Source: Fusobacterium ulcerans | GTDB lineage: Bacteria; Fusobacteriota; Fusobacteriia; Fusobacteriales; Fusobacteriaceae | Direction of reading: 5' to 3' | Assembly (NCBI RefSeq): GCF_003019675.1 | Contig: NZ_CP028105.1 | Location: 3,302,282 to 3,366,281 of the forward strand | DNA length: 64,000 bases | Shown: positions 7,979 through 32,332 of the stretch, in pieces | How the letters are laid out: the number at the start of each line of letters is the position of its first letter | Numbering within the stretch: position 1 is the stretch's first letter | Notes under the pieces: model-generated | Seen by the model: the letters and a program-made list of their open reading frames with translations, nothing else | Told to the model about the DNA's origin: nothing | Databases searched by the model: none | Position numbers and translations under genes: made by a program

Positions 7979-8026
7979 TAAAAATCTCTTTTAGAAATCG
8001 AATTAATTCTAAGAGAGATTTTTTAT
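7979..8026 (+). terminator. Rho-independent terminator of the LplT-Aas fusion gene
   Basis: AAAATCTCT pairs with AGAGAGATTTT around TTAG/CTAA inner pairing, followed by a T-rich run. It begins about 20 nt after the stop codon. Confidence 0.8.
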
Positions 8027-8093
8027 TTTAATATAGTTATTTATATAAAATCATAAATTTTAAAAATATGAATTAATGAAAGTATGAAAAAAT

Positions 8094-8498
8094 TTAAACT
8101 TTATTAAAATTCTTTAAGTCTTTTAGTTCTTCTAATATTTCTTCTAAAGAAGTTTTCCCATCATTTATAGCCATTGCTATAAGAGTCCCCTCTACTATAG
8201 GGGCATCAGCTATTTTTATTTTAGCTCTGTCATATTCTGCATCCAAAAATTCCATAGCCATTTCACTATTCAAAATTGAACTCCCTATATCACCAAATAT
8301 TAGAACTCCATCTTCTGAATAGGCATTTTCAATAGCTTCTTTTATAATCATAGGGTCTGATCCTAAATGATCTCCTGTTGTTCCACTTCCATTTATAACA
8401 GGAAAATCATATTTTTTCATTTCATTGCATAATTCAATTATTTCATGAGCAAGTTTTTTACTATGAGATACAATTACCATTCCTACCACAATAATCAC
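8094..8498 (-). CDS. dhaM: Phosphoenolpyruvate-dependent dihydroxyacetone kinase phosphotransferase subunit DhaM (EIIA-type domain only)
   Basis: A single mannose-type EIIA domain of about 130 residues. The active-site His is in IVSHSKKLA, and GSGTTGDHLGSDP and VLIFGDIGSSILN follow. DhaM passes phosphate from HPr to the ADP held in DhaL. E. coli DhaM carries extra HPr and EI-like domains; this one lacks them, as in Gram-positive bacteria. The start is uncertain: the longest frame begins at a GTG overlapping the dhaL stop, but a second GTG or the ATG just before VIVSHS (about 8480) fits the family better. It is the last gene of dhaK-dhaL-dhaM. Confidence 0.9.
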   Translation of the reverse strand: MIIVVGMVIVSHSKKLAHEIIELCNEMKKYDFPVINGSGTTGDHLGSDPMIIKEAIENAYSEDGVLIFGDIGSSILNSEMAMEFLDAEYDRAKIKIADAPIVEGTLIAMAINDGKTSLEEILEELKDLKNFNKV

Positions 8499-9115
8499 TA
8501 TCCTTTCAATTCATCATTTATAGTTTTTATAATTAAATATGATGAGACAGCTCCTGGATCAAGATGTCCTATACTTCTTTCTCCAAGATAGCTTGCTCTT
8601 CCTTTAGTAGCAGCTATATCTTTTGTAGATTCCATTCCAGATTTTGCTTTAAGCTCTGCAAATTCAAAACATTCTTTGACATTTGCTCCAGCATCAGCTT
8701 TTATTTTAAAAGCTTCATAAGCAGGAATTTGAGTATCAAGCATAGTCTTTTCTCCCAATACAGCCTTTCCTCTCATTTCTATTCCCTTTATCATTTCACT
8801 CCATGTTTCAGCTATTACTTCTGGAGTCATTTCTTCTTTAGTTTTAATATAAGCTGCTCCTTTCATTAAAGCGGTTCCATATAGTGCTCCTGATGCTCCT
8901 CCCACATTAGATACCAGTAGCATTGCCATTTTATTCAATATTTCAAAAGGCTTTAGAGTTTCCATAGTTGGAAGTTCTTTTTCTACCTTTTCAAATCCTC
9001 TGGCAAGATTTACACCATGATCCCCATCACCTATTTCTCTATCCAGCTCTGTAAGGTAATCTTTATTTTCAATTATTTTTTCACTTACTTTTTTTATTAT
9101 TTTTAATAGTTCCAT
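8498..9115 (-). CDS. dhaL: Dihydroxyacetone kinase ADP-binding subunit DhaL
   Basis: DhaL holds a permanently bound ADP that is rephosphorylated by DhaM, and transfers the phosphate to dihydroxyacetone bound on DhaK. The nucleotide/Mg motif REIGDGDHG and the NVGGASGALYG loop are present, and RASYLGERSIGHLDPGA closes the domain. I chose the ATG at 9115: AGGAG at the end of dhaK sits directly against the earlier ATG (9124) but 9 nt before this one. It follows dhaK with only a few bases between them, so the two are translationally coupled. Confidence 0.94.
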   Translation of the reverse strand: MELLKIIKKVSEKIIENKDYLTELDREIGDGDHGVNLARGFEKVEKELPTMETLKPFEILNKMAMLLVSNVGGASGALYGTALMKGAAYIKTKEEMTPEVIAETWSEMIKGIEMRGKAVLGEKTMLDTQIPAYEAFKIKADAGANVKECFEFAELKAKSGMESTKDIAATKGRASYLGERSIGHLDPGAVSSYLIIKTINDELKG

Positions 9116-9127
9116 ATTTTCCATCTC

Positions 9128-10123
9128 CTAAAATCTTTTAAATGCTGGAGTATCAGCTTTAGCTTTTAAAAGTTCTTTCATTTCATTATCTAATTTTGTT
9201 AAAGTGATTGAAAAGCCACCCATATCTAAAGATGTCATATAGTTCCCAACAATTGTATCAACTGCTTTAATGTTTTTTTCTTCTAATACTTGAGCTACTC
9301 TGTTGTTAATTATAAAAAGTTCCATTAAAGTAGTTTCTCCAAGTCCATTTATTAATACTGCAACTTCATCATTTTCTTTTAAATCAGATTCCTTAAATAT
9401 TTTCTCTAAAATATGATCTACATGAACATCTGCTGGCTGAATTTTTTCTCTGTGTGTTCCTGGCTCTCCATGAATTCCAAGTCCAATTTCTACCTCATCA
9501 TCTGCTAATTCAAAGCTTAATTTTCCAGTAGTTGGCACCATGCATGGTTCTAATGCCATTCCCAATGTTTTCGTTCTTCCAATAACCTTGTTCCCTAAAG
9601 CTTCCAGCTCTCCCAGAGAATATCCTTTTTCTGCTGCTGCTCCAACCATTTTATGTACTAAAACTGTTCCTGCTATTCCTCTTCTTCCCACAGTATATGT
9701 ACTATTTTCTACAGCGATATCATCATCAACTACTATTTTTTTTACTTCTATTTCTTCCATTGCAGCCATTTCAGCTGCCATTTCAAAATTCATTACATCT
9801 CCACTATAGTTTTTTATTATCAACAAAACTCCAGCTCCACTATTTACAGCTTTTATTGCTTCATAAACTTTGTCAGCACTAGGTGATGTAAATACTTCTC
9901 CAGCTACTGCTCCATCCAACATTCCATAACCAACAAATCCAGCATGTGAAGGCTCGTGTCCGCTTCCTCCTCCACTAATTAAAGCTGTTTTTCCCACTTT
10001 CTTATCTTTTCTCACTATTACTGGTAAATCTTCTACTCTTTCCAGATATTCTGGATAAGCTTTAAGCATTCCACTAACCATTTCTTCTACAATGTTCTCT
10101 GGTTTGTTAATCATTTTTTTCAT
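9128..10123 (-). CDS. dhaK: Dihydroxyacetone kinase substrate-binding subunit DhaK
   Basis: A 331-residue DhaK, which binds dihydroxyacetone as a hemiaminal on a histidine; that His is in GLGIHGEPGTHRE. The conserved SGGGSGHEPSHAGFVG loop near the N-terminus contacts substrate and the DhaL ADP. The start MKKMIN resembles other DhaK proteins and has AGGAGG 8 nt upstream. It heads the dhaKLM operon, which converts dihydroxyacetone (from glycerol oxidation) to dihydroxyacetone phosphate at the expense of PEP. The 5' leader carries a GlpP-type antitermination element (10149-10221), so control by glycerol 3-phosphate is likely. Confidence 0.97.
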   Translation of the reverse strand: MKKMINKPENIVEEMVSGMLKAYPEYLERVEDLPVIVRKDKKVGKTALISGGGSGHEPSHAGFVGYGMLDGAVAGEVFTSPSADKVYEAIKAVNSGAGVLLIIKNYSGDVMNFEMAAEMAAMEEIEVKKIVVDDDIAVENSTYTVGRRGIAGTVLVHKMVGAAAEKGYSLGELEALGNKVIGRTKTLGMALEPCMVPTTGKLSFELADDEVEIGLGIHGEPGTHREKIQPADVHVDHILEKIFKESDLKENDEVAVLINGLGETTLMELFIINNRVAQVLEEKNIKAVDTIVGNYMTSLDMGGFSITLTKLDNEMKELLKAKADTPAFKRF

Positions 10124-10148
10124 AAAATTTACCTCCTGAATTTTTATT

Positions 10149-10221
10149 AAAAAAAGCTCAAAATAATTCCCTCATATTTCTATAAGAAAATTACCCTAAG
10201 CCTCTCCATTCACATAGCTTT
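10149..10221 (-). promoter_or_regulatory. Predicted GlpP-responsive antiterminator/terminator leader of dhaKLM
   Basis: In the leftward transcript a 13-bp terminator stem (plus-strand arms 10189-10201 and 10156-10168, three G-U pairs) runs into seven U (10149-10155). An alternative helix joins AAGCT (10216-10220) to GGCTT (10198-10202), and its 3' half overlaps the terminator's 5' arm, so the two are mutually exclusive. The glpF leader at 31587-31660 has the same order of elements and compatible base changes: AAA pairing with TTT there becomes GGG pairing with TTT here. glpP lies in this window at 31735. Confidence 0.75.
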
Positions 10222-10234
10222 ATTCATTTATTAA

Positions 10235-10263
10235 ATTTTAATCTATTTTGAAATCTTTGTCAA
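10235..10263 (-). promoter_or_regulatory. Sigma-70-type promoter of dhaKLM
   Basis: Leftward TTGACA (10258-10263), a 17-nt spacer, then TAAAAT (10235-10240). Transcription would begin a few nucleotides before the antiterminator element, as at the glpF promoter. Confidence 0.7.
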
Positions 10264-10276
10264 CGTATTTAATATT

Positions 10277-11044
10277 TTAAAACATTTCTTTTAACATTTT
10301 TAAAGCAGTCACTGTAGTCACAGTAAGGAACACTGGCTTTATAAATCTGCTTCCTTTACTTATAGCACACCTTGAACCACATTGAGCTCCTAAAAGCATT
10401 ATTATTGAAATTGGTATCCCATAAAGAAAATATACTTTCCCACTGATTCCAAATACTAAAAGGCTTGTAAAATTTCCTATTAAATTTAAAATTTTAGAGT
10501 CTCCGTTAGCTTCTACAAAATCATATCCAAATATTTTCATCATAAAAAAAACTAAAAATGACCCTGTCCCTGGACCTAAAAACCCATTGTAGAATCCTAT
10601 GACAAAAGCCATTATCATTCCCTTTGTAACATTTGATTTAGTCAGACCTGTGAATGTACTTTCATGACCCATTTTTTTATTAGTCAATGTATAGGCAAGT
10701 ACCACTATTAAAGCTGTAAATACTATATAATTAATATATTGAGGTTTTGTTCCAATTATAATTTTTACTCCAATAAATGCTCCTACAAAAGAAAATGGAG
10801 CCAATTTTTTCATAAGATTCCAATTGACTTTTCCTGACCTTGCATAGTTCACACTGCTTCCTACCCCAGAAAAAAATCCAGATAACTTATTTGTTCCTAA
10901 AGCAATATGAGGCGGCAATCCTGATGCTAAGTAAGCTGGCAGTGAAATCAAGCCCCCTCCTCCTGCTACCGAATCAATAAATGCTCCTACAAAACATAAG
11001 CAGGCTAAAATAATAAATTGACTGGTTAAAAGCTCTTTTAACAT
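10277..11044 (-). CDS. TauE/SafE (TSUP) family membrane permease
   Basis: A 255-residue integral membrane protein with about eight hydrophobic segments. It has the TSUP half-signatures: an N-terminal FVGAFIDSVAGGGGLISLP with LGTNKLSGFFSGVGS, and the second half GFYNGFLGPGTGSFL with GDSKILNLIGNF. Family members export sulfite, sulfoacetate or other organosulfur anions; this substrate cannot be told. GGGGGAG sits 7 nt before the ATG. It lies between the ridA terminator and the dhaKLM promoter and is probably a single-gene unit, with no visible link to glycerol metabolism. Confidence 0.9.
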   Translation of the reverse strand: MLKELLTSQFIILACLCFVGAFIDSVAGGGGLISLPAYLASGLPPHIALGTNKLSGFFSGVGSSVNYARSGKVNWNLMKKLAPFSFVGAFIGVKIIIGTKPQYINYIVFTALIVVLAYTLTNKKMGHESTFTGLTKSNVTKGMIMAFVIGFYNGFLGPGTGSFLVFFMMKIFGYDFVEANGDSKILNLIGNFTSLLVFGISGKVYFLYGIPISIIMLLGAQCGSRCAISKGSRFIKPVFLTVTTVTALKMLKEMF

Positions 11045-11127
11045 TAAAAATCTCCCCCTTTATTGTATACACTTCATTTTAACACATTTGTATTTTTTAT
11101 TCTACATAAAACCAAGATTTTTAGACA

Positions 11128-11172
11128 TAAAAAAATGGAGGAAATCCAACTGTTGAATCTCTCCCCATTTTA
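11128..11172 (-). terminator. Rho-independent terminator after ridA
   Basis: Leftward AAAATGGGGAGA pairs with TTTCCTCCATTTT with one mismatch, followed by a run of seven T. It separates ridA from the TSUP permease gene. Confidence 0.85.
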
Positions 11173-11183
11173 ATTATGTATTA

Positions 11184-11561
11184 CTATTTTACAGCAATAA
11201 CTTCTATTTCAACTTTTACATCTTTTGGAAGTCTAGCAACTTCTACACATGCTCTTGCAGGTTTTACATCTCCAAGATATTCAGCATAAACTTCGTTTAC
11301 AGCTGCGAAATCGTTCATATCTTTAATGAACACTCCAGCTCTTACTACATCTTTAAAAGTATATCCAGCAGCTTCAAGTATAGCTTTGATATTTTCTAGA
11401 GATTGTTTAGTTTGAGCTTTTACGCAGTCAGAAACTACAGTCATTGTTTCAGGAACAAATGGAATTTGTCCAGATACATAAAGAGTTCCATTAACTTCAA
11501 TAGCTTGTGAGTATGGTCCTAAAGCAGCAGGTGCTTTTTCAGTGTGAATTATTTTTTTCAT
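11184..11561 (-). CDS. ridA: RidA family reactive intermediate (enamine/imine) deaminase
   Basis: A 125-residue YjgF/YER057c/UK114 protein. It hydrolyses 2-aminoacrylate and related enamine intermediates released by PLP enzymes. The family core is visible: [15 protein letters not shown] near the N-terminus, LYVSGQIPF, and the C-terminal block [16 protein letters not shown] whose Arg binds the substrate carboxylate. AGGAGG lies 8 nt before the ATG. It follows xdhC by 59 bp without a visible terminator, so it may be the last gene of yqeB-xdhC-ridA; that grouping hints at purine or heterocycle catabolism but proves nothing. Confidence 0.95.
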
Positions 11562-14780: not shown

Positions 14781-14808
14781 AACAGGGAGCTTAAGCTCCC
14801 TGTTTTTT
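14781..14808 (+). terminator. Rho-independent terminator after the moaA-MOSC pair
   Basis: A perfect 24-bp palindrome (14781-14804) with arms AACAGGGAGCTT and AAGCTCCCTGTT, followed by TTTT. It starts immediately after the MOSC stop and abuts the stop codon of the convergent autotransporter gene. Confidence 0.9.
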
Positions 14809-17800
14809 AGAATCTATACATTAGATTTACTCCATATCTAGTTGCATCTATGCTTCCTTCCTGTCTTGTTACTTCAAAGCCTATGCTGTGTCCTTCTCTT
14901 GTCTCATATTTAAGCTCTGCGCCTATTTTTATTATATCTTTTACTTTCTTTGGTTTTTCTAAGTCATAGTATCCTGCATCTGTATTTTTGATTTTCGCCT
15001 TGTTTGCTCCATCATATACTTTTCCCAGTTCATACTCTGCTGTTGCTTTTCCTATCAGACTATATTTTCCTGACTGTGCATATTTATTGAAAGCTATATC
15101 TGCTCCTACTCCTGGTCTTACTATGTACATATCTCTTGACTCTATATCCAGTTCTATTCCATCTCCACTTTCTTTGAAATCTTCAAACTTTCCATATCCT
15201 AAGTTGAATGTTCCAAATACTCCAAGATTTATTTTTTCACTATCCAATGGGATGTCATATCTTAATTTATTTTTCCATTCCACTGTTCCTGACCAGAATT
15301 TTCCTGTATTCTCATATGTTCCACTGCTCAAATGTATCTTTCTGTCTGTCTCATGATGATTTACACTTATCTCTCCTCTTGTGTAGTATTTCAAATTTTT
15401 ACTATCTTTTATATAGTCTTCAAATCCTACTCCTGCATTTAGTGAGTAAACTGTTTCTTTTGATCCAGGGTCAAAATCAAATTTAGTCTGTGTAAATCCT
15501 ACACTCCAGTTAGATATTCTTCCATATTTCATATGATCATACTCTTTTAATATCATTGTTCCAAGAGATTTAGATTCATAATCTTCCACTCCTGCTCTTT
15601 TGCTCTTTGTTTCTCCTCCAGTCATGATAGCTCCTATCTTCAGAGTTTCTCTTGAATAAAGTCTGTTATTTTTTAAATTTTCATATGATGTAGTGAATAC
15701 TTCGTTAATATCCAACATTCTAGTTTGGATGTTTGCATATACATTTCCTCTAAGTTCATTATCAAATGTTGCTCCAAGTTCATCTTTATCTGATATCATA
15801 TCCAGCGCATCAAACATTTCAAGTTCTTTATTTGCTGCTCCAGCATATATTTCATCCAATCCTTTTCCAAACTCTATAGCTTCTGTTCCTGAAAGAAGTT
15901 TCTTATATGGTATCTTTACCATTACTATTCTTATTAGATTAGGATCAGTATCATCTTTTTGTACATCTGCTATAAATGAAACTGAATGAGATATTGCTGT
16001 TATAGATCCATGATTTGGTACATTTGTAATTCCATTTAGATATTGTACTGTATACATATCATGATTGCTTCCTTGAGTTACATTTGGAAGAACTATGAAC
16101 TGCCCTTTATTAAATGATTCAGCATTTATTGTTCCTATATGTCCTGCTGTACTTCCTAAAGTTATAGTTCCAAAATCAAGCGCTCCATTTACTGTTATTG
16201 TTCCTGTATTTGTAATAGTTACTCCATCTATTGAAGCTGTTGGTCCATTGATAGTTATATCTCCAACATTTGTCAGACTTCCACTACCTTCTACTACTCC
16301 TTCTCCTCCTGATATGTTTATAGTTCCTTTATTAAGAAGAACTCCATCAGTACCTAAATATATTCCTGTTCTTCCTGCTCCATTTACATTTATTGTTCCA
16401 TAGTTTTCAACTGTTGCTTTATAGTCTGCATAGATTCCTTCACTGTCTGCTCCATTTACTGTAATAGTTCCTGTAGTATGGTTTCTTACTATTGAATTAT
16501 CAGTAGCTGCCATTCCTCTTGAATTTGCCCCATCTACTGTAATTAATCCATAGTTTTCCAATGTTGAATACTTAGTTGCCTGCATTCCATAAGCAAGTTT
16601 TCCATCTACCTTGATATTTCCTCTATTTATTCCATGGCCTCCATCATTTGCTACCATTCCTACTCCATGGTCATTAGGTACATATATATATCCCAAAGAA
16701 GAATTTTCTACAATTCCTGATTCAGCTGCCATTCCTACAGAAATTTTTGGAGGCAGTCCTGATACTACAGTTGATTTTCCTACTGTTATATTAGCATTAT
16801 TTATCATAGTTCCTGATTTTGTATACATCCCTATACTATGATCGCTTAATGACAGATTAGTATTATTTGTTCCTGTTCCTGAAGCAGAATAGATATATGA
16901 TGAATCTGTTCCTACATTGATAACAGCCCCATTTGCTACTGTTATATTTCCATTTTCTGTAGCTATTCCAACAGATTCTTTTCCAGCAGTTATTGTTCCG
17001 CTGTTATGATCTACTGAAGTAGTTCCTGCTCCATAGATTCCAGCTGAATTAGTATTTCCCACTGTTATATTTCCTGTATTTGTTATCATAGTTCCATTTT
17101 TTACAAATATACCATTAGAACTATCTCCTAATCCTATATTTCCAGCATTTGATGCACTTCCCTGAAGTCCATAGATTCCCGTACTCTTTGCTCCTGTACT
17201 TTGAATAAAATTGCTGTTTGTTACAACAGTATTTTCTCCAAATATCCCTACTGCATCTTTTCCTATTTCTATATTTCCAGTGTTTGATACAGAAGTTACA
17301 TTTTTACCATACATAGCCACTGCTGAATTAAGTATCAGTCCTGTATAAGCTCCATTTCCTACTTCTATTGATGAGTTGTTTATCATAGTTCCATTTTCGC
17401 TATACATACCTATACTTGAATCTCCCATAAGCTTCATAGTTCCACTATTTACAGTAGTTCCTGTACCTGTATTAATTATTCCTTTATTTTTTACAGTTGA
17501 TGAGTCTATATTTCCAGAATAGTTTATATTTCCATTATTTGTAGTAAATACTCCTATAGCTTCTGTTCCTGTAAGGTCTATCTTTATTCCTGTATTCAAT
17601 GCTACATTATTGTCCATAAATATTCCAGTTGATTTATTTGATACATTTAATTTATCAAGGTTTGTCACTTTAGAAATATCTCCTGTTCCTGTAAGAAATA
17701 TTCCTGTTCCCTCTGTCCCAGTTGTCACTTCTCTGTTGTTGAAATCTACCAAAGAAGCTGAATCTGAAAGTGTAAGAGCTATACTTTTATTGCTCATAAC

Positions 17801-20800
17801 TATATCAGCACCTGTGTAGTTGATTGTTCCTCCAGCGCCAAATAGTAAAGTTGAGTCTTCTCCAACTGAAGCTGTTCCGCTTATATTCATAGTTCCATCA
17901 GTTCCAACATAGTATGCTGCTGATTTATCTCCTACTGATACATGTCCTGTTGATGTTCCAACAGCAAAATTTTCAGTATACATTCCTATTGATGTATTCC
18001 CAGTAAGATTTATTGTTCCAGCATTTGTAAGAGTAGTTCCCACTCCTGTTCCTACCATAGCTTTTGCATTTATTACATTTCCATTGATAGTTCCAAGGTT
18101 AGAGTTAGTTATTGTTGCTCCACTGTCTCCTTGCAGTCCACTTGTTCCTACAGTTATAGCTGTATCATTAAGTATATTTCCTAGTGCCCCTGATACTATT
18201 ACATTGGCAAAATTAATATTTACAGGAGTTCCAGATGTAAAATGAAGATTTCCATTATCCAAATACGCAAAGATACCTGCTGCTGTATTTGTTACTGTTC
18301 CTCCTGATACATTAAGATTAGCTCCATTTTTAACATAGAATCCCATGTTATTTGTTCCGCCTATATCTACTTTTCCTCCAGCACCTAAAGTAAATGTGCT
18401 TCCCTGTTCAAGTAAAGCTCCTATTCCTTTGTTTGCTGTACTTGAAGATGTAATGTTAAGTTCTCCATTGTATGTTATATTTGCTGCTACTCCTAAGTTT
18501 TCAGCAAGATATATACCTAATGCATCTTCTCCTGTTACATTTATTTTTGCTCCAAGAGTTCCAGTAATAGATGGATCTACATATATACCTATTGTTCTGT
18601 TTGCTACTGTAGAATCTCCTGTTACTGACATAGTTCCTGTATAGCTTACAGCATTATTTTTCAGATAGATTCCTATTCCTCCATCAATATCAAAGTTATA
18701 TGCTGTATTTCCTGTTATATCTCCACTATTTACATAAACTCCTATCTTATTTCCTACAATTGATGGAGTTCCTGTTATAGTTCCCATATTTGTTACTGTA
18801 GAACTTGCTCCATCTAAATAGATACCTATTGTATCATCTCCTGATAAAGCCAGTGTTCCCTGATTAGAAACTGCTGCTCCATTGTCTCCATATATTCCTA
18901 TTCCATCAGTATTGATAGTTTGAGCTGCTGTATTTGTAAGAAATATTCCATCAGCAAATATACTTACAAGATTATCTCCTGTATGGTTTACTGTTATATT
19001 ATTTGTTACTGGATTTGTTCCCGCGTAATAAATTCCTACTCCCTTGGCAGTATTAGTATAGTTTACATTTAATGTTCCAGAAGACAGCGCTGAATCCTTA
19101 GAATACATAGCTATTCCCTGATTTCCCATAGCAATAGTTCCACTGTATCCTGCTAGATTTACTGAACTGTTTTCTGCATATACACCTGTTCCACCTGTTC
19201 CTACAGATATATTTCCACTTGTTAATGTTGAACTTCCACTATCTAATACTATACCTACTGTTCCAGAACCAGTCTGAGATATATTTGCTCCATTTAGATT
19301 TACTATACCAGTATTTTTTCCAACTACTGATGTAGTATTATTAGCAGTTCCTGTTATAGTTCCTCCATTAAGATTAACTACTGAACTTCCTCCATCAGCA
19401 AGTATTCCTACACCACTATTGACAGTCAGTGTTCCAGATGTATAGTTGATAGTTGAAGCATCTTTTCCATATAGTCCAAGATAATGAGAACCTATTGTTC
19501 CTGTATTTTCTATTGTAGATCCTTTAGCAAAGGCTCCTATACTTCCTCCTGCAAGAGTAGAATTCAGAGTTCCTGCATTTGTAAATGTAGCTCCATTTTC
19601 TGCATACACCCCAATTGATGATGAACCTCCAGAATTTATTATTCCTCCTGTACTATTTGTAAATGAAGAACCTGCCTTAGTTACAATAACCCCTACAGAA
19701 TTATTTCCTGTTGATGTTATAGTACCTGTTGATGAAGAGTCTCCTCCTTTGAAGTACATTCCATATCCATCAGCTATATTTACTGTTACATTTCCACTAT
19801 TTGCTACATCTGTATCTATGAAGTACGCTCCTATTCCTTTAGCATTTAATGTTATATTTCCGCTGTTAGTAAACGGCGCCAAAGTTGAACCATACATTCC
19901 TATGATTTCATCACTTCCTGATACAATTTCTATATCAGTTTTATTTTGTGCAGAACCTGTTCCATAGTATAGCCCAATAGGTCTTACTGGATCTGATCCA
20001 CTTAGCGCTGTAGACGTGCTGCTTAGTTTCATTGTTCCTGTATCTGCAAAAGCGCCGCCTTTATAGTAAGCTCCTATCCCCATTTTACCACCTGTATCAG
20101 ATGAAAGAGAAAGATTCATAAGCCCACTTGTTTTTGAAGTATTATCTCCATCCATATATATTCCAACAGCATTAGGAGCTGCTGTTATATTGCTTGGAGC
20201 TATTGAAGATACTGTTATATTATTTCCTGATGCATATATTCCTAATGGAATATTTCCATCAGCAAGACTTGCTGCTGTTACAACTATAGTTCCTCCATTT
20301 AATTCAATCATCCCCTGATGAGCTCCTGTTGTTTTAGCAGAGATACCTATATTTGATACTCCATTTACATTTATCGTTCCAGAGTTACTAAATGTAAAGT
20401 TTCCATTATCTGTTACATTGTGAACTCCTATATTTTCTGTTCCAGCTTCATTATGTACAACATTTATTGTTCCACTGTTTTTAAGTATAGAATCTTTACT
20501 GTAAATACCTATATTATTTTTCCCTACATTTACTATTCCACTTGTTTCATTCAATGTATTTTTAGTATTTGTCATAAATATTCCAAATCTTCTGTCTGCT
20601 GTTGATAAAGAATCTCCCAAAGTTATATTTGATGAGTTATTCAATCTTAAAGCTGTTCCAATAGTATCCTCTACATATATTCCTATTCCAGCTTTTCCTG
20701 CAACACTCATTGGAGCAGACCCATTAGTAACTTTTATCTCTCTATTTCCTGCAATACTGCTCTTTGCATATATTCCAATAGGATGTACACTTGTTGAACT

Positions 20801-23800
20801 GTCTCCATTTCCCTCTATTACAATATCTTTTCCAACAGTATCTACAGATGCATCCTTAGCATAAATACCTATTGCTCCACTTACTGGGGCTAAGCTGTCT
20901 CCTACTGTTACAACTCCAGTATTTACTACATTTACACCTTCAGAAATTATTCCATAAGATCCTGTAGATTTGGCTGTTATATCTCCAGAGTTTGTAAGTG
21001 TTCCTGCTCCTGTTCCGTAGATACCTACTATTGTTTCTGCACCACTAGTATTTAATACTTCCATATTCATATTATTATTAAAAGTATTTCCTGTTGTTCC
21101 TTTGAAAGCTATTCCTATAGCTGTATTCCCTGCTCCTGAAGTTCCAGCATAGTCCACTGTAAGTTTATCTGCTGCATTAGTATGAGATATGATTGTATTC
21201 CCTTCTGATTGAAGAGCTACTCCTCCCTCTTGGATTTCTATTCCATAATTTCCATTCATTTTTACATCAGAACCTTGAGCATATATTCCAACACCATTTT
21301 TACCTACTTTGATATCTCTTCCACTTCCAGAATCTTTAAGAGTAAGAGTTCCTCCAGCTCCAGTGGTATTAGTGCTTCTTATTACAATACCTTTTCCATC
21401 ATCTCCAAGTGTAATAGGAGCTTCATTATGCATAGTCATCTGACTTTTAGCAGCACTATTATGATTATTTTCCATATAGATACCTATTCCATGAGTTCCA
21501 GTTATACCAATAGTTCCCTTATTGATAACCTCTCCCCATAGTCCAGCTTTTCCTGCATTTTTTCCATAAGTATCTGGTGTTCCAGAAGCATTTGTTGCAA
21601 GTACAGCTATTCCTATTCCAGAATTTGTACTACTTGAATTTGCAACTTTTATTATTCCATTGTTTATCACTTTACTTCCATTAACTCCATAAGCTCCAAT
21701 TCCCTCTGAAACTTTAAGTTTTCCTAATGAATCAACATTTATATATCCAAAACTTGTGTATGCTGCTGTTGTTGAACTTCCTGGTGTGTTACTGATATCA
21801 ACAATTCCTTCAATAGTATATCCAGATTCAGTATTTAATGCTGCTGTTGAATTTGATCCTAAAAGCAGACTGTTTCCATTAGCAGAAGTTATGTTATATC
21901 CGGATTTTAAAGTAACTTCTTTTCTTTCCATAATTATATCGTTAAAACCATCCCCAGAAGTTACTCCAGTTGATATATTATCTCTATTTACATTAGTTTG
22001 AATTGAAATTTTTCCTCCATCCAAACTGCTTTTATACCAATATGCTCCTGTATTTATAGCTGCAACTTTAGGGATAGTTTTTAATCCATTTACATATGTT
22101 GCTGATCCATCCCATGTTACATCAATATTTCTAAATACTCCAAGATTTACTCCATGACCAGCTAAATTTACTATCAGATTTCCCATTCCTGTATATCTTC
22201 CTGTTTCTGTTCCAATCTTTCCTGCTGCGGAATAATCATTTGAATCTCCATAGAAAGCTACACCTTTTTTTATATTTAAAATTGTATTATTTGTAAAGTT
22301 TATATTGGAAACTTGAGAACCTATTTTCTCAGAGAAAAAAGCAAGTTTATTTTCTACTTCATGCTCTATAGTTCCTCCTCCAAAATTTATTTTCCCACCT
22401 TCTTTTGCAACCAAAGCTCCATTATCTCCACTAATAATATTACTTCCTGATCCTGATATAGTAACAGTTGCTTTATCTCCTCTGGCAAAAGCACCTAAAC
22501 CTGCAACATCTATTTTTCCATTGACTATAACAGAGGTATTTCCTAATCCTTTTGAAGCTCCCTCTCCAGAGATAGCGGCTGCTCCTATATTATTATTTTG
22601 ATCAGCAGGCAGTGCCCCATTTGCTTTAGCAGTAATATTATCTATTATAATTGTTGTGTCAGGCTGAATGTTTGCACTTGCTCCATTTGAATCTACTATA
22701 CTTCCAGCAGTATAATTATATACTCCATGTACAAAAGCACCTTTAGAGCTATACCCATCCATAATAATGTCTTTACCTGTTATTTTAGCTCCACTTTTTG
22801 CAAATAAAGCTGTACTTTTTATACTATTCATAGTAATATTTTTACCAACTTTTACCTCTGTATTAAAATCAGAAATATATTTTTGCCCTGTTACGCTCTC
22901 TCCTCTACCATATGCTTCTTTATCATATGTTCCTCCACTGAAGACCTTTCTTGGATTGAACCATACTCCTTCAGCATAAACCATAATATTGCTTTCAGCT
23001 CCACTTACAGCATTATCTGTTATTATTCCTGAAGGATTCAATTCTATAACTGAACCATTTTTTGCAACAAGTCCGATTGAATCTTTTGAATATTTCCCAA
23101 AAGTAACTTGAAATTCTGATAAATCAAAGTTTTTTATAGGATCATTGATTGAAGCATTAGTTCCTAATTGAAATGCCCCAATATCATCACCATTTTTAAG
23201 CCCCACAATTTTATCTCCATAAGCATTCACATTATCAATAGTAAAAGACAGTGTTGCTGGAAAATATTGTGCAAACCCATTTTTTAAAGTATTCATATCT
23301 GTTCTTTGTCCAGACGCTATATATAGAGCAACATTCTTATCAGATTTTACATTAGAGTTTGAACCATCATTTCCAGTTCCTTTTTGAGTTGTTCCTCCAG
23401 AAGTTCCATCTAATGTTATTCCTAAATTAGCTTTCACTACAACTTTACCTTGAAAAACAGCATTACCTGCTGGATTAGTTTTATTATCAGTAAAATAATA
23501 TCCTACATTATTATCTCCTGAAAGATTTATAGTTCCTAAATCAACTATCTGACTTCCAGATGCACCAGTGACTCCACTCAATTTAGTTCTATCAGGAACA
23601 TAACTAGCAAGCCATGCTCCAGCATTTCCACTTCCAACAAATTCTACAGTTCCTGCATTTTGGAACTTGATATTTCCTGGTGAAGGATAATACATCTGAT
23701 ATCTTCCAGGATTTGTATGATATGTAGCTGCTGGAAGTGAAGGTGGTGTCGAAACAACAGAATCACTTCCAGTCCATCTGTGTACTGACGCTGGCAAAAG

Positions 23801-25609
23801 ATAAAAAATTGCATTGTTGCTCGTTTCAGCTTTAATATTTGTAACCCCCAAATTTATTCCTGTATTATTGCTTGATTTATCTCCACGATAAACTCCCCAT
23901 TCTAATGTATCTGGTCTGCAATCAATACTGCTTGTATATCTATGCTGATTTGGAGTTACTGAACCCAACGCTAAAATAGTATTATAATTTCCAGCTATAT
24001 CAATATTAACATTATTAAAATTTACAATATAATCATATTGTGATTCAACATCTGCAATTATAGTCTTTCCTTTTAAATTAATATTTACATTTTGCATTCT
24101 TACACCTGTTGTTTGTGCAAAAATTGCTGTTCCATGTTTAGATTTTTCTCCTCCTACAGTTATGTTCATATCTCTGACTAAAGCTGGAGCTCCTTGAAAT
24201 ATCCAAATTTGTTGAAATTTATTTAAATAAAGATTATTTGTATCTCCTGCTGCTGGCACACCTAAAGAACCATTATCAACATATGAGTAATATTGATTAG
24301 CATTAATAACTGGAAATCCATATGGGCTTACAGAAACTGTTCCTGGAGAAAACCAAGCATTTGTAGGAACAGCACTTCCTATACCAACATTTGTAGCAAT
24401 ATTTCTATATTCATTAGTCACAGTTCCATCTGGAGCAGTTGTAGCTACAATCTCACTTGTACTTCCATTTCCATAAATTGTATTGCTTATATTAAAAAAT
24501 GGTGCATCATTTATACTTGTATTTGTATTATTTATTCCTACCCATCTTTTTATTCTTCTATCAAAATTGTTAAACCCTGATGTAGTTCCATTAGCACTAA
24601 CTCCATACAGCCAATTTCCTCTTTTTCTTACATATACTTCAAAATTTGGTGCTGCTGGAGAATCTGGTGTAGTAACCACTGGATTAGGATCTTCTACTCT
24701 AGGAGGAAGATTTATTGGTACTGATATATTTAAAACAGGAGTTGATAAAGTTGGTATGTTTAGTACTCCTGGTCCAGCTACATTTATTGCCCCTATATTT
24801 ACATTTATATTTGGTTCATTTACTGTTACTCTTATATCTCCTGGTGCTGTTGGTGTTGTTGGCAGTGACACAGTTGGAGTTACAACTGTTGGAGCTGTTA
24901 CATTTACTGCTCCTACTGTTATTGAAGCTATTGCTGGTGATGTCACTGGTATCACTGTTGGAGCTGTTGGCACTGTAAACGCTACATTTGGAACTGTTGG
25001 TTCTATTACTACTGGTGCTTTCACCACTGGCAGAATGAATAACTTTGCCTCTGCATCATATACATTTGTATTTGAATGATAATTTCCATTCATATTTATC
25101 CAACCGCTTGAAGCATATCCACTTGTTTTATTGTTATGTGTATATTGGGCTGCTCCTAAAAGTGTTCCTTTTTCTCCTGCTACTGAGGAATTTCCATGCA
25201 CCTCATTAAATCTTTTTCTTAATTTATCCATAGAAGTGTCTCCTCTTACACTTCCTTTCCAGTCTTTACTTACACTGTCAGCTTTTTTAAAGCCTCCTAT
25301 CATTGAAAATCCATATGCTGGTGCTGTGGGTTTAGAATAAAAATCAGCTTCTTTCAAAAGGATTCTTGAATCCAAATTTAGTGTTTTCATCTTACTTTGA
25401 TTTTCTAATAATTTCTGCTTTATAGCTTCTCTTTCTTCTTGAATCTTAATTAATAAATCCCCTTTTGTTTCATGAATCTCTTCTGCTGTTATTCCTGCTC
25501 CCAAGGCTATTCCACCTGTTATCATAAAAGCTATTAAAAGTGAAAAAGAATAACTGACTCTTCTCTTCAAAAATCTCTTTAGAGATTTTTCAATATCATT
25601 TTTTCTCAT
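14807..25609 (-). CDS. Giant fusobacterial autotransporter (type Va-like secreted beta-helix adhesin)
   Basis: About 3,600 residues. An N-terminal signal region (FLKRRVSYSFSLLIAFMITG, then ALGA) is followed by a short charged helical segment (KGDLLIKIQEEREAIKQK), a Pro/Thr/Val-rich stretch, then roughly 3,000 residues of glycine-, asparagine- and threonine-rich repeats with very frequent GIGIY/GIYA and NxGxI units, as expected of a beta-helix passenger. The last about 270 residues are an autotransporter beta-barrel ending in YRF with the C-terminal Phe needed for BAM recognition. Members include fusobacterial adhesins such as Fap2 and RadD; the ligand here is unknown. The longest frame starts at a TTG within GGGGAGG; the ATG at 25609, 7 nt after that site, is the real start. 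Confidence 0.93.
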   Translation of the reverse strand: MRKNDIEKSLKRFLKRRVSYSFSLLIAFMITGGIALGAGITAEEIHETKGDLLIKIQEEREAIKQKLLENQSKMKTLNLDSRILLKEADFYSKPTAPAYGFSMIGGFKKADSVSKDWKGSVRGDTSMDKLRKRFNEVHGNSSVAGEKGTLLGAAQYTHNNKTSGYASSGWINMNGNYHSNTNVYDAEAKLFILPVVKAPVVIEPTVPNVAFTVPTAPTVIPVTSPAIASITVGAVNVTAPTVVTPTVSLPTTPTAPGDIRVTVNEPNINVNIGAINVAGPGVLNIPTLSTPVLNISVPINLPPRVEDPNPVVTTPDSPAAPNFEVYVRKRGNWLYGVSANGTTSGFNNFDRRIKRWVGINNTNTSINDAPFFNISNTIYGNGSTSEIVATTAPDGTVTNEYRNIATNVGIGSAVPTNAWFSPGTVSVSPYGFPVINANQYYSYVDNGSLGVPAAGDTNNLYLNKFQQIWIFQGAPALVRDMNITVGGEKSKHGTAIFAQTTGVRMQNVNINLKGKTIIADVESQYDYIVNFNNVNIDIAGNYNTILALGSVTPNQHRYTSSIDCRPDTLEWGVYRGDKSSNNTGINLGVTNIKAETSNNAIFYLLPASVHRWTGSDSVVSTPPSLPAATYHTNPGRYQMYYPSPGNIKFQNAGTVEFVGSGNAGAWLASYVPDRTKLSGVTGASGSQIVDLGTINLSGDNNVGYYFTDNKTNPAGNAVFQGKVVVKANLGITLDGTSGGTTQKGTGNDGSNSNVKSDKNVALYIASGQRTDMNTLKNGFAQYFPATLSFTIDNVNAYGDKIVGLKNGDDIGAFQLGTNASINDPIKNFDLSEFQVTFGKYSKDSIGLVAKNGSVIELNPSGIITDNAVSGAESNIMVYAEGVWFNPRKVFSGGTYDKEAYGRGESVTGQKYISDFNTEVKVGKNITMNSIKSTALFAKSGAKITGKDIIMDGYSSKGAFVHGVYNYTAGSIVDSNGASANIQPDTTIIIDNITAKANGALPADQNNNIGAAAISGEGASKGLGNTSVIVNGKIDVAGLGAFARGDKATVTISGSGSNIISGDNGALVAKEGGKINFGGGTIEHEVENKLAFFSEKIGSQVSNINFTNNTILNIKKGVAFYGDSNDYSAAGKIGTETGRYTGMGNLIVNLAGHGVNLGVFRNIDVTWDGSATYVNGLKTIPKVAAINTGAYWYKSSLDGGKISIQTNVNRDNISTGVTSGDGFNDIIMERKEVTLKSGYNITSANGNSLLLGSNSTAALNTESGYTIEGIVDISNTPGSSTTAAYTSFGYINVDSLGKLKVSEGIGAYGVNGSKVINNGIIKVANSSSTNSGIGIAVLATNASGTPDTYGKNAGKAGLWGEVINKGTIGITGTHGIGIYMENNHNSAAKSQMTMHNEAPITLGDDGKGIVIRSTNTTGAGGTLTLKDSGSGRDIKVGKNGVGIYAQGSDVKMNGNYGIEIQEGGVALQSEGNTIISHTNAADKLTVDYAGTSGAGNTAIGIAFKGTTGNTFNNNMNMEVLNTSGAETIVGIYGTGAGTLTNSGDITAKSTGSYGIISEGVNVVNTGVVTVGDSLAPVSGAIGIYAKDASVDTVGKDIVIEGNGDSSTSVHPIGIYAKSSIAGNREIKVTNGSAPMSVAGKAGIGIYVEDTIGTALRLNNSSNITLGDSLSTADRRFGIFMTNTKNTLNETSGIVNVGKNNIGIYSKDSILKNSGTINVVHNEAGTENIGVHNVTDNGNFTFSNSGTINVNGVSNIGISAKTTGAHQGMIELNGGTIVVTAASLADGNIPLGIYASGNNITVSSIAPSNITAAPNAVGIYMDGDNTSKTSGLMNLSLSSDTGGKMGIGAYYKGGAFADTGTMKLSSTSTALSGSDPVRPIGLYYGTGSAQNKTDIEIVSGSDEIIGMYGSTLAPFTNSGNITLNAKGIGAYFIDTDVANSGNVTVNIADGYGMYFKGGDSSSTGTITSTGNNSVGVIVTKAGSSFTNSTGGIINSGGSSSIGVYAENGATFTNAGTLNSTLAGGSIGAFAKGSTIENTGTIGSHYLGLYGKDASTINYTSGTLTVNSGVGILADGGSSVVNLNGGTITGTANNTTSVVGKNTGIVNLNGANISQTGSGTVGIVLDSGSSTLTSGNISVGTGGTGVYAENSSVNLAGYSGTIAMGNQGIAMYSKDSALSSGTLNVNYTNTAKGVGIYYAGTNPVTNNITVNHTGDNLVSIFADGIFLTNTAAQTINTDGIGIYGDNGAAVSNQGTLALSGDDTIGIYLDGASSTVTNMGTITGTPSIVGNKIGVYVNSGDITGNTAYNFDIDGGIGIYLKNNAVSYTGTMSVTGDSTVANRTIGIYVDPSITGTLGAKINVTGEDALGIYLAENLGVAANITYNGELNITSSSTANKGIGALLEQGSTFTLGAGGKVDIGGTNNMGFYVKNGANLNVSGGTVTNTAAGIFAYLDNGNLHFTSGTPVNINFANVIVSGALGNILNDTAITVGTSGLQGDSGATITNSNLGTINGNVINAKAMVGTGVGTTLTNAGTINLTGNTSIGMYTENFAVGTSTGHVSVGDKSAAYYVGTDGTMNISGTASVGEDSTLLFGAGGTINYTGADIVMSNKSIALTLSDSASLVDFNNREVTTGTEGTGIFLTGTGDISKVTNLDKLNVSNKSTGIFMDNNVALNTGIKIDLTGTEAIGVFTTNNGNINYSGNIDSSTVKNKGIINTGTGTTVNSGTMKLMGDSSIGMYSENGTMINNSSIEVGNGAYTGLILNSAVAMYGKNVTSVSNTGNIEIGKDAVGIFGENTVVTNSNFIQSTGAKSTGIYGLQGSASNAGNIGLGDSSNGIFVKNGTMITNTGNITVGNTNSAGIYGAGTTSVDHNSGTITAGKESVGIATENGNITVANGAVINVGTDSSYIYSASGTGTNNTNLSLSDHSIGMYTKSGTMINNANITVGKSTVVSGLPPKISVGMAAESGIVENSSLGYIYVPNDHGVGMVANDGGHGINRGNIKVDGKLAYGMQATKYSTLENYGLITVDGANSRGMAATDNSIVRNHTTGTITVNGADSEGIYADYKATVENYGTINVNGAGRTGIYLGTDGVLLNKGTINISGGEGVVEGSGSLTNVGDITINGPTASIDGVTITNTGTITVNGALDFGTITLGSTAGHIGTINAESFNKGQFIVLPNVTQGSNHDMYTVQYLNGITNVPNHGSITAISHSVSFIADVQKDDTDPNLIRIVMVKIPYKKLLSGTEAIEFGKGLDEIYAGAANKELEMFDALDMISDKDELGATFDNELRGNVYANIQTRMLDINEVFTTSYENLKNNRLYSRETLKIGAIMTGGETKSKRAGVEDYESKSLGTMILKEYDHMKYGRISNWSVGFTQTKFDFDPGSKETVYSLNAGVGFEDYIKDSKNLKYYTRGEISVNHHETDRKIHLSSGTYENTGKFWSGTVEWKNKLRYDIPLDSEKINLGVFGTFNLGYGKFEDFKESGDGIELDIESRDMYIVRPGVGADIAFNKYAQSGKYSLIGKATAEYELGKVYDGANKAKIKNTDAGYYDLEKPKKVKDIIKIGAELKYETREGHSIGFEVTRQEGSIDATRYGVNLMYRF

Positions 25610-25994
25610 AGGTATCCTCCCCAAATTAAATTTCAGTAATTTTTTTCTAGTATTATCAGGGATATATTTGTACTTTAGTTCCTAGATATTACTTATTATA
25701 ATTTTTTATTTAAATATATTCTTTAATTAAAAATTATATTTATAACAGTATTCTTTTCTCCTTTCTATTAAGATTAATCATAAAATTTAAGACATACGAA
25801 AAATCTTTTATATTCTATATTACGAAATTATAACTTCTTTAATCGACAATATAATTCGTTTGATAAAAGAACAAAACGATATTTTTTAAGAAAATTATAA
25901 CATATAAACACTTTATTTTAAATATACATTTTTTATCAAGTATCCATTTAATACATTTAAAGATATTAAAATGATGTTAATTTTTTATAAATAT
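25610..25994 (-). other. Long AT-rich upstream region of the autotransporter gene
   Basis: About 385 bp without a credible ORF, bounded by the glp operon terminator and the autotransporter RBS (GGGGAGG). It must hold the autotransporter promoter. A TATAAT on the leftward strand lies near 25829, but no convincing -35 is correctly spaced, so I do not mark a promoter. Nothing else is recognisable. Confidence 0.4.
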
Positions 25995-27670: not shown

Positions 27671-29098
27671 CTATTTTGTCTTTCCTGTCAGAATATATGC
27701 ACCTTTTTTATCTAATACTATCTCATCTAATTTTTTTCCAAGTTCTCTAGCCAGTATTTCCTGTACTCTAGGACCGCAGAATCCACCTTGGCATCTTCCT
27801 GATCCAGGTCTGCATCTCTTTTTAATACCATCTACTGTCTTAGCTCCTACCATTCTGTGAATTACATCTACTATTTCTCCTTCAGTAATATTTTCACATC
27901 TGCATATTATTCTTCCATATCTATGATCTTCAGCTATAATCTTAGCTTTTTCTTCAGGAGCAAGTTCCATAAAATGTATTTGAGGTCTGATTTGTTTGAA
28001 TATTTCTTTCTTTGTCACATTTCCTAATCTATTTAATACCTGTGAAGCTATTTCTAATGCTATTGCTGGTGCTGATGACAATCCAGGAGATTTTGTTCCT
28101 GCTATATTGAAAAATCCCTCTGCATCAGAAGCCTCTCCTATTATAAAATCTCCTCTGTCACTCTCTGCTCTAAGTCCAGCAAAGTTTCTTATATTATCTC
28201 TGAAATTTATTTCTGGTATACTCTTTACAGATTGTTTTTTTATAGCGTCCATTTCGATTACGGTATTTGCTACATCTTCCTTATCATCTATATCTAAAGC
28301 TGTAGGTCCAGTTATGAGGTTTCCATGAATAGTCTGTGCTACCAGTACACCTTTTCCTAGGGCAGTTGGACACTGAAATATTACACTGTTTGTAAGAGTT
28401 CCCTGAACTTTATCCAAAAGGAAATATTCTCCTTTTCTTGGTATTATTTTAAATTGATCTTTACTTACCATTGCATTCAATTCATCAGCAAATACCCCTG
28501 ATGCATTAATAACAGTTTTAGTAAGAATTTCTCTGTCTTCAAGTTTTACAAGATATCCATTTTCTAATTTTTTTATATCTAAAACTTTGCTGTCTGTCTG
28601 TACATCTACACCATTTTCAGCAGCATTTTCCAATAATTTTATAGTAAATTCCCATGGACCTATCACACCTGCTGTTGGAGCATAAAGAGCTGCAACTACT
28701 TCTTTATTTATATTAGGTTCTCTTTTTAATACCTCTGCTCCTTCTAATATTTCGATTCCAGGAATCCCATTTTTGATCCCTCTATTATATAGAACTTTCA
28801 AATGTTCTCTTTCTTCTTCTGAGAAAGCAAGAACAAATGATCCACATCTTTTAAAAGGTGCATCTATTTCTTTACAAAGGTCATCAAACATAGCATTCCC
28901 TAATGCATTATATTTTGCCATAAGTGTTCCATTTTGTGCGTCATATCCAGCATGGATTATGGCTGAGTTTGCCTTTGTTGTTCCATTAGATATGTCATGC
29001 TCTTTTTCTAAAACTATTATATCTAAATTATATTTAGATAATTCACGAGCCACTGCTGCTCCCATTATTCCACTTCCTATTACAACAACATCTACCAT
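27671..29098 (-). CDS. GlpA-like FAD-dependent glycerol-3-phosphate dehydrogenase with C-terminal [2Fe-2S] domain
   Basis: Oxidises glycerol 3-phosphate to dihydroxyacetone phosphate. About 475 residues: a DAO-type FAD domain starting DVVVIGSGIMGAAVARELS, with GLRAESDRGDFIIGE and the AGTKSPGLSSAPAIA segment, then a BFD-like [2Fe-2S] domain with RCEN and KKRCRPGSGRCQGGFCG cysteines. The longest frame begins at 29158 but its first 20 codons are terminator-hairpin sequence; GGGAGG 7 nt before the ATG at 29098 marks the start. L-2-hydroxyglutarate oxidase-like proteins share the fold, but the glpF/glpK context favours glycerol 3-phosphate. Confidence 0.9.
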   Translation of the reverse strand: MVDVVVIGSGIMGAAVARELSKYNLDIIVLEKEHDISNGTTKANSAIIHAGYDAQNGTLMAKYNALGNAMFDDLCKEIDAPFKRCGSFVLAFSEEEREHLKVLYNRGIKNGIPGIEILEGAEVLKREPNINKEVVAALYAPTAGVIGPWEFTIKLLENAAENGVDVQTDSKVLDIKKLENGYLVKLEDREILTKTVINASGVFADELNAMVSKDQFKIIPRKGEYFLLDKVQGTLTNSVIFQCPTALGKGVLVAQTIHGNLITGPTALDIDDKEDVANTVIEMDAIKKQSVKSIPEINFRDNIRNFAGLRAESDRGDFIIGEASDAEGFFNIAGTKSPGLSSAPAIALEIASQVLNRLGNVTKKEIFKQIRPQIHFMELAPEEKAKIIAEDHRYGRIICRCENITEGEIVDVIHRMVGAKTVDGIKKRCRPGSGRCQGGFCGPRVQEILARELGKKLDEIVLDKKGAYILTGKTK

Positions 29099-29120
29099 TG
29101 TACCCTCCCGTTCTTTTAAG

Positions 29121-29173
29121 AAAAAAGGGTCAAGCAAATAAGCAGGAATGATTCCCACTATATGCTTGACCCA
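29121..29173 (-). terminator. Intergenic terminator/attenuator between glpK and the glpA-like gene
   Basis: A 10-bp stem (TGCTTGACCC 29163-29172 with GGGTCAAGCA 29127-29136), an inner GGAAT/ATTCC helix and six T leftward. It lies just ahead of the glpA-like RBS, so it must be read through or bypassed. An upstream GCTTGAC (29231-29237) can compete for the same GTCAAGC strand. Confidence 0.75.
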
Positions 29174-29243: not shown

Positions 29244-30764
<1,521 letters not shown>

Positions 30765-30797: not shown

Positions 30798-31541
30798 TTA
30801 TATTATACAAGTTATACATTTGCCAACAAAAGCATCAAAGAATAATACTCCTAAAACTGCTCCTATGATTGGTCCTATAATAGGAACCCAGGCATATTGC
30901 CAGTTTGATCCACCTTTTCCTTTTATAGGAAGAAGTGCATGAGCTATTCTAGGTCCAAGATCTCTAGCTGGATTGATAGCAAATCCTGTTGCTCCTCCAG
31001 TTGCCATTCCAATTACACAAATAAGCATTCCCACAAGGAAAGGTCCCATTCCTGATCCAACTTCATTGCTACCATATCCTATTGCAAGGATACCTACTAC
31101 CAGAATAGTTGTCCCAACTATTTCTGTTACTAAATTCCAAGGTTTGTTCTCAATTGCTGGCCCAGTTGCAAATACTCCTAATTTAGTTCCTGCATCTGGT
31201 TCATCATCCATCAGGTCTTTATTAGTAAGATAAGCCAATGTAGCTCCTGCCATCGCTCCTAATAATTGAGCTATTATATATCCTGGTAAAAGATTAAGAG
31301 CTAATCTTCCACTAAGTGCAAGAGATATAGACAATGCTGGATTTAGATGTGCTCCACTTACCCATCCAGTAAGATATGCTGACATAGATACAGCAAGTCC
31401 CCATCCAAAACAAGTTACCATCCAACCTCCGCCTTTTCCAAAACTTTTTCTTAAACTAAGAGTCATATTGATTCCATTCCCTAAAAGCAGTAACGAAGCT
31501 GTTCCTATAAATTCTGCCAGATACATTGAACTTGGTGTCAT
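30798..31541 (-). CDS. glpF: Glycerol uptake facilitator (aquaglyceroporin)
   Basis: A 247-residue MIP-family channel with six transmembrane segments and the two half-helix pore motifs HLNPALSISLALSG and AINPARDLGPR; the Asp after the second NPA-Arg marks the glycerol-conducting subgroup. It lets glycerol diffuse across the inner membrane for trapping by GlpK. AAGGAGG lies 6 nt before the ATG. The 190-bp upstream gap to glpP holds a promoter and the GlpP-type leader. Confidence 0.96.
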   Translation of the reverse strand: MTPSSMYLAEFIGTASLLLLGNGINMTLSLRKSFGKGGGWMVTCFGWGLAVSMSAYLTGWVSGAHLNPALSISLALSGRLALNLLPGYIIAQLLGAMAGATLAYLTNKDLMDDEPDAGTKLGVFATGPAIENKPWNLVTEIVGTTILVVGILAIGYGSNEVGSGMGPFLVGMLICVIGMATGGATGFAINPARDLGPRIAHALLPIKGKGGSNWQYAWVPIIGPIIGAVLGVLFFDAFVGKCITCII

Positions 31542-31586: not shown

Positions 31587-31660
31587 AAAAAAAGCTTAAA
31601 ATACTTACCCTTCTTTTTCAGAAAGATAATTATTTTAAGCTTCTCATTTCTCCAAGCTTT
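31587..31660 (-). promoter_or_regulatory. Predicted GlpP-responsive antiterminator/terminator leader of glpFK
   Basis: Terminator: a perfect 10-bp stem (TATTTTAAGC 31631-31640 with GCTTAAAATA 31594-31603), inner pairing, then seven U in the leftward transcript (31587-31593). Antiterminator: AAGCTT at 31654-31659 pairs with AAGCTT at 31637-31642, which overlaps the terminator's 5' arm. GlpP stabilises the antiterminator of glpD and glpFK leaders in Bacillus, and glpP is the next gene upstream. Confidence 0.8.
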
Positions 31661-31674
31661 ATTAACTTAATATA

Positions 31675-31703
31675 ATGTTACTTCACTTTTAAAACTTTGT
31701 CAA
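31675..31703 (-). promoter_or_regulatory. Sigma-70-type promoter of glpFK
   Basis: Leftward TTGACA (31698-31703), 17-nt spacer, TAACAT (31675-31680), about 15 nt before the antiterminator. Confidence 0.65.
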
Positions 31704-31734: not shown

Positions 31735-32295
31735 CTAACTTTCCCATAAATTCTTATCTGTAGTAGATATCCCTTCTGCTCCAGCTTTTAAGGCATTAAT
31801 CACATCTTCTTTTTCATCTATGAGGCCTCCGGCTATTATTGGAACATTTAATATATTTTTTATTTTTTTTATTATTTTTGGCATTATTCCTGGCAGAATT
31901 TCTACAGCACTTGGCTTATTTTCACGAATATGAGCTATTGTATTTTTAAATGAAAAAGAATCCAGTATAAAAAATCTTTGTATCACAGGAATCTCATTTT
32001 TATTTGCAAGACTCACAACATTATGTTTAGTTGTAATTATTCCATCTAGTCCTGTATTCTTTATTATATATTCTACACCATATGCTGAACTTGATAATCC
32101 TTCTATCATATCTACATGAACGAAAACTATTTTTCCTGCCTTTTTCAGCTCTGCAACTATATCTGTTACATTAAGAAGATTGGATATTATAACAAAAACT
32201 ATTTCACTGCTGCTATTTTTAGCCTCTTCCAAATATGTATCATTTTTAACTGCTGGAATAACAGGATTTCTTTCTAAAACTTCTCTAATTTTCAT
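31735..32295 (-). CDS. glpP: Glycerol-3-phosphate-responsive antiterminator GlpP
   Basis: An RNA-binding antiterminator of 186 residues in the GlpP family. With glycerol 3-phosphate bound it stabilises an antiterminator hairpin in target leaders. Family sequence is visible throughout: KIREVLERNPVIPAVKND at the N-terminus, FVHVDMIEGLSSSAYGVEYI, DGIITTKHNVV, and the phosphate-binding C-terminus VEILPGIMPKI and PIIAGGLIDEKEDV of a TIM-like barrel. The longest frame starts at a GTG inside the AGGTGG ribosome site; the ATG at 32295, 5 nt after it, is preferred. It lies immediately upstream of its probable target glpF, with its own promoter. Confidence 0.94.
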   Translation of the reverse strand: MKIREVLERNPVIPAVKNDTYLEEAKNSSSEIVFVIISNLLNVTDIVAELKKAGKIVFVHVDMIEGLSSSAYGVEYIIKNTGLDGIITTKHNVVSLANKNEIPVIQRFFILDSFSFKNTIAHIRENKPSAVEILPGIMPKIIKKIKNILNVPIIAGGLIDEKEDVINALKAGAEGISTTDKNLWES

Positions 32296-32332
32296 ATCAA
32301 CCACCTATCTTGTAATTTCTCTCTTATTTAAA

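Follow-up and report, generated by a model that had tools for sequence, protein, structure and literature searches.

Here we report that the dhaKLM operon of Fusobacterium ulcerans is preceded by what is, judged from its sequence, highly likely to be a GlpP-type antitermination leader, and that this operon is very probably a second GlpP target beside glpFK, induced by glycerol 3-phosphate via antitermination. Both operons lie in the 64,000-nucleotide stretch of the genome analysed here (the window). In B. subtilis, the glpD, glpFK and glpTQ leaders carry a promoter, a GlpP site and an intrinsic terminator in the 5' UTR, and are read through in the presence of GlpP and glycerol 3-phosphate (PMC9604022). 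The GlpP encoded beside glpF here belongs to the same family (PF04309), whereas that paper does not name the predicted target, dhaKLM, among those of B. subtilis. The kind of leader is already known and its attachment to dhaKLM appears to be new. The placement of dhaKLM in the GlpP regulon, as put forward in the original prediction, is supported by a match to a covariance model trained without any dhaK leader (E 9e-7), by covariation and by the presence of GlpP beside glpF. The literature searched, which was largely without subscription journals, contained neither an earlier report of a GlpP-dhaK link, as the prediction had supposed, nor any paper joining GlpP with glycerol regulation in Fusobacterium. 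Such a link would connect the glycerol-3-phosphate sensor GlpP with a PEP-dependent dihydroxyacetone kinase, in bacteria whose control of glycerol use seems to have received little study.

The DhaK, DhaL and DhaM proteins all scored above the curated NCBIfam equivalog cut-offs (Table 1), and the PTS-type, PEP-dependent dihydroxyacetone kinase assumed in the prediction is therefore well supported. The glpP gene is located directly upstream of glpF, with glpK and a glpO-like gene behind the latter, and the glpP product resembles the solved GlpP structure 3kts (E 8e-31). No clear glycerol dehydrogenase was found in the genome, where three related proteins fell below the cut-off, and the source of dihydroxyacetone could therefore be extracellular or an unrecognised enzyme.

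Table 1. Features of the dha and glp loci, in window coordinates
Feature	Position	Strand	Remarks
dhaKLM leader, whole	10124-10263	minus	
dhaKLM promoter, -35 TTGACA	10258-10263	minus	sequence match
dhaKLM promoter, -10 TAAAAT	10235-10240	minus	sequence match; 17-nt spacer from -35
dhaK antiterminator helix, 5' strand AAGCU	10216-10220	minus	
dhaK antiterminator loop AUGUGAAUGGAGA	10203-10215	minus	boxes GUGA 10213-10210 and GGAGA 10207-10203
dhaK antiterminator helix, 3' strand GGCUU	10198-10202	minus	doubles as base of terminator 5' arm
dhaK intrinsic terminator	10149-10202	minus	stem-loop 10202-10156, seven U 10155-10149
dhaK ribosome binding site AGGAGG	10132-10137	minus	
dhaK	9128-10123	minus	TIGR02363, above cut-off
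dhaL	8498-9124	minus	TIGR02365, above cut-off
dhaM, single-domain phosphoryl donor	8094-8498	minus	TIGR02364, above cut-off
glpP	31735-32304	minus	PF04309 G3P_antiterm, E 4e-64 to 7e-64; only match in genome
glpFK promoter, -35 TTGACA	31698-31703	minus	
glpFK promoter, -10 TAACAT	31675-31680	minus	
glpF antiterminator helix, 5' strand AAGCUU	31654-31659	minus	
glpF antiterminator loop GGAGAAAUGAG	31643-31653	minus	boxes GGAGA 31653-31649 and GAG-A 31645-31642
glpF antiterminator helix, 3' strand AAGCUU	31637-31642	minus	common to terminator
glpF intrinsic terminator	31587-31642	minus	stem-loop 31642-31594, seven U 31593-31587
glpF, glycerol facilitator (MIP family)	30798-31541	minus	
glpK, glycerol kinase	29244-30746	minus	
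glpO-like glycerol-3-phosphate oxidase/dehydrogenase	27671-29158	minus	below the family's equivalog cut-off

All the leader elements described in the original prediction were located, for dhaKLM as well as glpFK, on the minus strand. The two leaders have an identical layout. A TTGACA-N17 promoter is followed by a short antiterminator hairpin, whose loop is conserved, and then by a strong terminator with seven U (about -27 kcal/mol), into which the 3' strand of the antiterminator is built. The overlap claimed between antiterminator and terminator was thus present in both, the 3' strand being the base of the 5' arm of the terminator. Since the GGCUU strand of dhaK (10202-10198) is common to the two hairpins, these exclude each other. 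The dhaKLM promoter agrees with the consensus at 11 of 12 positions and is the top promoter match within 8000-11200, with the transcript expected to start near 10228. Gap-free alignment of the two loops, AUGUGAAUGGAGA (dhaK) and UGGAGAAAUGAGA (glpF), revealed a two-box loop in each with boxes of the form GnGA, namely GUGA...GGAGA in dhaK and GGAGA...GAGA in glpF. The GGAGA-like loop predicted for both leaders needs correcting as to position, as GGAGA does occur in each, but as the 3' box in dhaK and as the 5' box in glpF. The dhaK loop is proposed to be the site recognised by GlpP.

The core leaders fold far more stably than chance (z -6.3 and -5.7), none of 200 shuffles being as good. The 5 bp antiterminator helix of dhaK, taken alone in the single sequence, was not above chance, being equalled by 11% of mononucleotide shuffles; its significance therefore comes from comparison with relatives and not from single-sequence statistics. 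The antiterminator alone was calculated at -1.7 kcal/mol for dhaK and -3.8 kcal/mol for glpF, against -27.1 kcal/mol for the whole dhaK leader, and so weak a dhaK hairpin fits, as expected, a need for stabilisation by a protein. Forcing the antiterminator cost about 11 kcal/mol in both leaders and left a gap of about 12 nt between the remaining upper stem and the U run, which indicates that the switch would have to be decided during transcription and that the weak hairpin would need help.

Conservation in related genomes and covariation, which the prediction had proposed as a check, were both present. Eight further species, belonging to two genera, have the leader in front of dhaK, in degenerate form in one of them; it was seen in G000 and G025-G029 of the same genus and in G033 and G036 of another, with G024 carrying the degenerate form. 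The antiterminator helix is weak or lost in G024 (dhaK) and G023 (glpF). Across genera, the helix takes the forms AAGCU/AGCUU, GACUU/AAGUU, AAGCA/UGCUU, AAUCUU/AAGAUU and AUGUAUUUU/AAAAUACAU, with AUGGC/GCCAU in Firmicutes; the helix sequence is thus wholly different between genera and still complementary. Within the genus, the helix varies by G-U changes only, and covariation there is uninformative. In a strand-exchange test on 20 leaders, with equal register freedom for the exchanged pairs, the mean best-register score was 12.25 as compared to 5.2 ± 1.0 when 3' strands were exchanged, and none of 20,000 exchanges scored as high, either overall or in Fusobacteria alone; as the leaders and their boundaries were hand-picked and the two weak cases (G024 dhaK and G023 glpF) left out, this figure is indicative and not a strict probability. 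The terminator was also conserved, with 96.6% of cells paired over 12 dhaK and glpF leaders, 8 pairs changed on both sides and a covariation score reached by none of 500 shuffles.

These comparisons bear on the possibility that the AAGCTT repeats form the DNA operator of a repressor, the terminator being a constitutive attenuator or part of an upstream transcript. AAGCTT is palindromic and could serve as a DNA site, and a TauE-like gene upstream ends 14 bp before the -35 hexamer. However, outside this group both strands change wholly, remain complementary and keep the loop, which fits an RNA hairpin rather than a DNA operator, and the promoter sits downstream of that gene and ahead of the terminator. 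We regard this possibility as very unlikely, and as the least probable of the alternatives considered.

The positions of GlpP and DhaK were determined in 98 Fusobacteriota genomes, and a covariance model built on mixed leaders (R1) recovered the leaders as expected. A second model, with no dhaK leader in its training set, was run on the genome of F. ulcerans and 18 relatives. In the 3.54-Mb F. ulcerans genome, this model ranked the glpF site first (E 1.2e-7) and the dhaK site second (E 9.2e-7), the third-ranked site (E 0.014) being within a coding sequence. Weaker sites in the same genome (141264, 1754312, 2537275 and 2393306) lay in or across long open frames and were taken as chance. The dhaK leaders of G025-G029 and G036 were detected by the same model at E 6e-8 to 3e-6, while second dhaK paralogues of G026, G027 and G028 had no match nearby among the matches listed and thus served as an internal negative. 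With R1, 17 genomes had matches at E 1e-3 or better; GlpP was found in 16 of these, and the match in the remaining genome (G046) is within a coding sequence. Most GlpP loci of Firmicutes were not reached by R1 because their helix sequences differ. A search against Rfam, at the gathering score as well as at a loose E-value, gave no relevant match, and the two-box GlpP-type leader is apparently a family absent from Rfam.

A conserved loop, mutually exclusive hairpins and logic contained in the leader alone would also suit a riboswitch, in which the terminator is switched by the RNA itself in response to glycerol 3-phosphate, dihydroxyacetone or some other small molecule, a protein being unnecessary in principle. 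The conserved part is, however, a single hairpin of 5-6 bp with a loop of 11-15 nt, which is below the size of a typical aptamer and, in dhaK, hardly stable by itself. This size, the co-occurrence of R1 matches with GlpP and the lack of an Rfam family match make a protein-free switch highly improbable, and antitermination by GlpP is preferred.

Related loops were observed before glpF, glpK, GDPD and DctP genes of other fusobacteria. Two-box loops were also present before glpF, glpK or glpO in Clostridium bovifaecis, C. homopropionicum, C. rectalis, C. thermopalmarium, C. mobile, Anoxynatronum and Caldanaerobacter, and before glpF in one genome of the Heyndrickxia family. A regular-expression scan for hairpins at 110 GlpP loci was noisy (91 matches as compared to 44 in shuffled sequence), and therefore only sites immediately before glp genes and followed by a terminator were used; in C. 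rectalis, C. thermopalmarium and C. mobile, the loops were identified independently of the pattern, by reading the sequence that immediately follows glpP. The dhaK helix of F. ulcerans, AAGCU/GGCUU, differs from the AUGGC/GCCAU of the Firmicutes leaders examined. The leader was found before none of 14 dhaK genes in 11 of the 12 GlpP-bearing Firmicutes genomes searched, which counts against the proposed link. Several of the Firmicutes dhaK genes carry TTGGCA...TTGC elements, which we take to be sigma-54-like. At the level of sequence, the two-box loops of Firmicutes appear to connect the fusobacterial leaders to the kind of leader whose control by GlpP has been demonstrated in B. subtilis (PMC9604022).

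A candidate RNA element for recognition by GlpP, which can be tested, thus emerges from the comparison; it has two short repeats in the loop and a free stem sequence and is apparently common to Fusobacteria and Firmicutes. On balance, we favour the view that a two-box loop (GnGA, 1-7 nt, GnGA/GGAG) on a helix whose sequence is free serves as the general GlpP recognition element of both phyla, perhaps with one box per subunit, that the leader family lies outside Rfam, and that fusobacteria have thereby brought dhaKLM, GDPD and a DctP TRAP transporter under GlpP. A GlpP-type leader precedes the gene of a DctP TRAP solute-binding protein at five loci (L072, L073, L075, L077 and L087, in G031, G034, G052, G051 and G050, respectively); the DctP identity (PF03480) was confirmed by Pfam for L072 and L075, and glpP adjoins in several of these genomes. 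This suggests glycerol or a glycerol phosphate compound as the substrate of the transporter. In G050, the GlpP match (C21:21019-21537) lies within a 620-residue open frame, a possible fusion or missed stop.

In G020, a GlpP-type leader (L079, 1501-1529) precedes a GDPD gene, and no GlpP was found in the 99% complete assembly. Possible reasons are recent loss of the regulator, an assembly gap or another regulator, and the presence of the leader is therefore not perfectly tied to GlpP. This case would favour an antiterminator of another kind, such as one of the BglG/LicT family, or a different RNA-binding protein acting on the dhaK leader, its likeness to the glpF leader being due to chance or descent. 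In the BglG/LicT/SacY systems, a protein stabilises a small RAT hairpin overlapping a terminator, and the arrangement predicted here is similar in that respect. Unlike those regulators, GlpP belongs to another protein family and has no PTS-regulation domain, and both loop and helix are unlike RAT by inspection. Further, the loop is that found at glp genes across two phyla, and the F. ulcerans genome has it at dhaK and glpF only and does encode GlpP. Control by such a regulator, although the least improbable of the alternatives, is itself very unlikely, and GlpP remains the preferred regulator of dhaKLM.

GlpP binding, the glycerol 3-phosphate ligand, read-through and the physiology at the dhaK leader are inferred, and the following course of events would be consistent with the leader. 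Without inducer, polymerase starting from the TTGACA/TAAAAT promoter would make the terminator hairpin and halt at the seven U. Glycerol would enter via GlpF and be converted by GlpK to glycerol 3-phosphate, the ligand for GlpP. Ligand-bound GlpP may then grip the emerging two-box loop (GUGA...GGAGA) and stabilise the weak AAGCU/GGCUU hairpin; the GGCUU strand would be taken from the base of the terminator, a gap of about 12 nt would lie between the leftover stem and the U run, and polymerase would continue into the dhaKLM genes. GlpF should also admit dihydroxyacetone, which would then be phosphorylated at the expense of PEP and enter the pathway at DHAP. Elsewhere, the same PTS-linked dihydroxyacetone kinase is controlled at the promoter by DhaR/DhaQ/DhaS-type activators, whereas control here is predicted to act after initiation, through a glycerol-3-phosphate sensor.

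A dhaK gene without its own leader often adjoins glpP, divergently in G009 and G014 and on the same strand in G037 and G038, or stands directly behind glpK or glpF, as in G016, G031, G034, G087 and Clostridium mobile; a leader is present at the glpF that precedes dhaK in G031 and G034. This genetic linkage of dhaK with glp genes adds to the case for GlpP control of dhaKLM. In G027 (L063, dhaK C1:1108282-1109362), dhaK is seemingly split into two overlapping frames and the leader is intact. In G019 (L027/L080), the glpF leader lies behind glpP about 800 bases from glpF, as if by insertion.

Elsewhere in the window, a lysine riboswitch (Rfam RF00168, 83 bits) is present on the minus strand at 49318-49495; a switch in this position should activate genes when lysine is present. 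The minus-strand cluster just downstream (45577-49207) reads as lysine fermentation, the names being assigned solely by sequence inspection. The region 14807-25624 is a single open frame of 3605 amino acids, rich in short repeats and without a Pfam match, which reads like a giant autotransporter-type surface protein.
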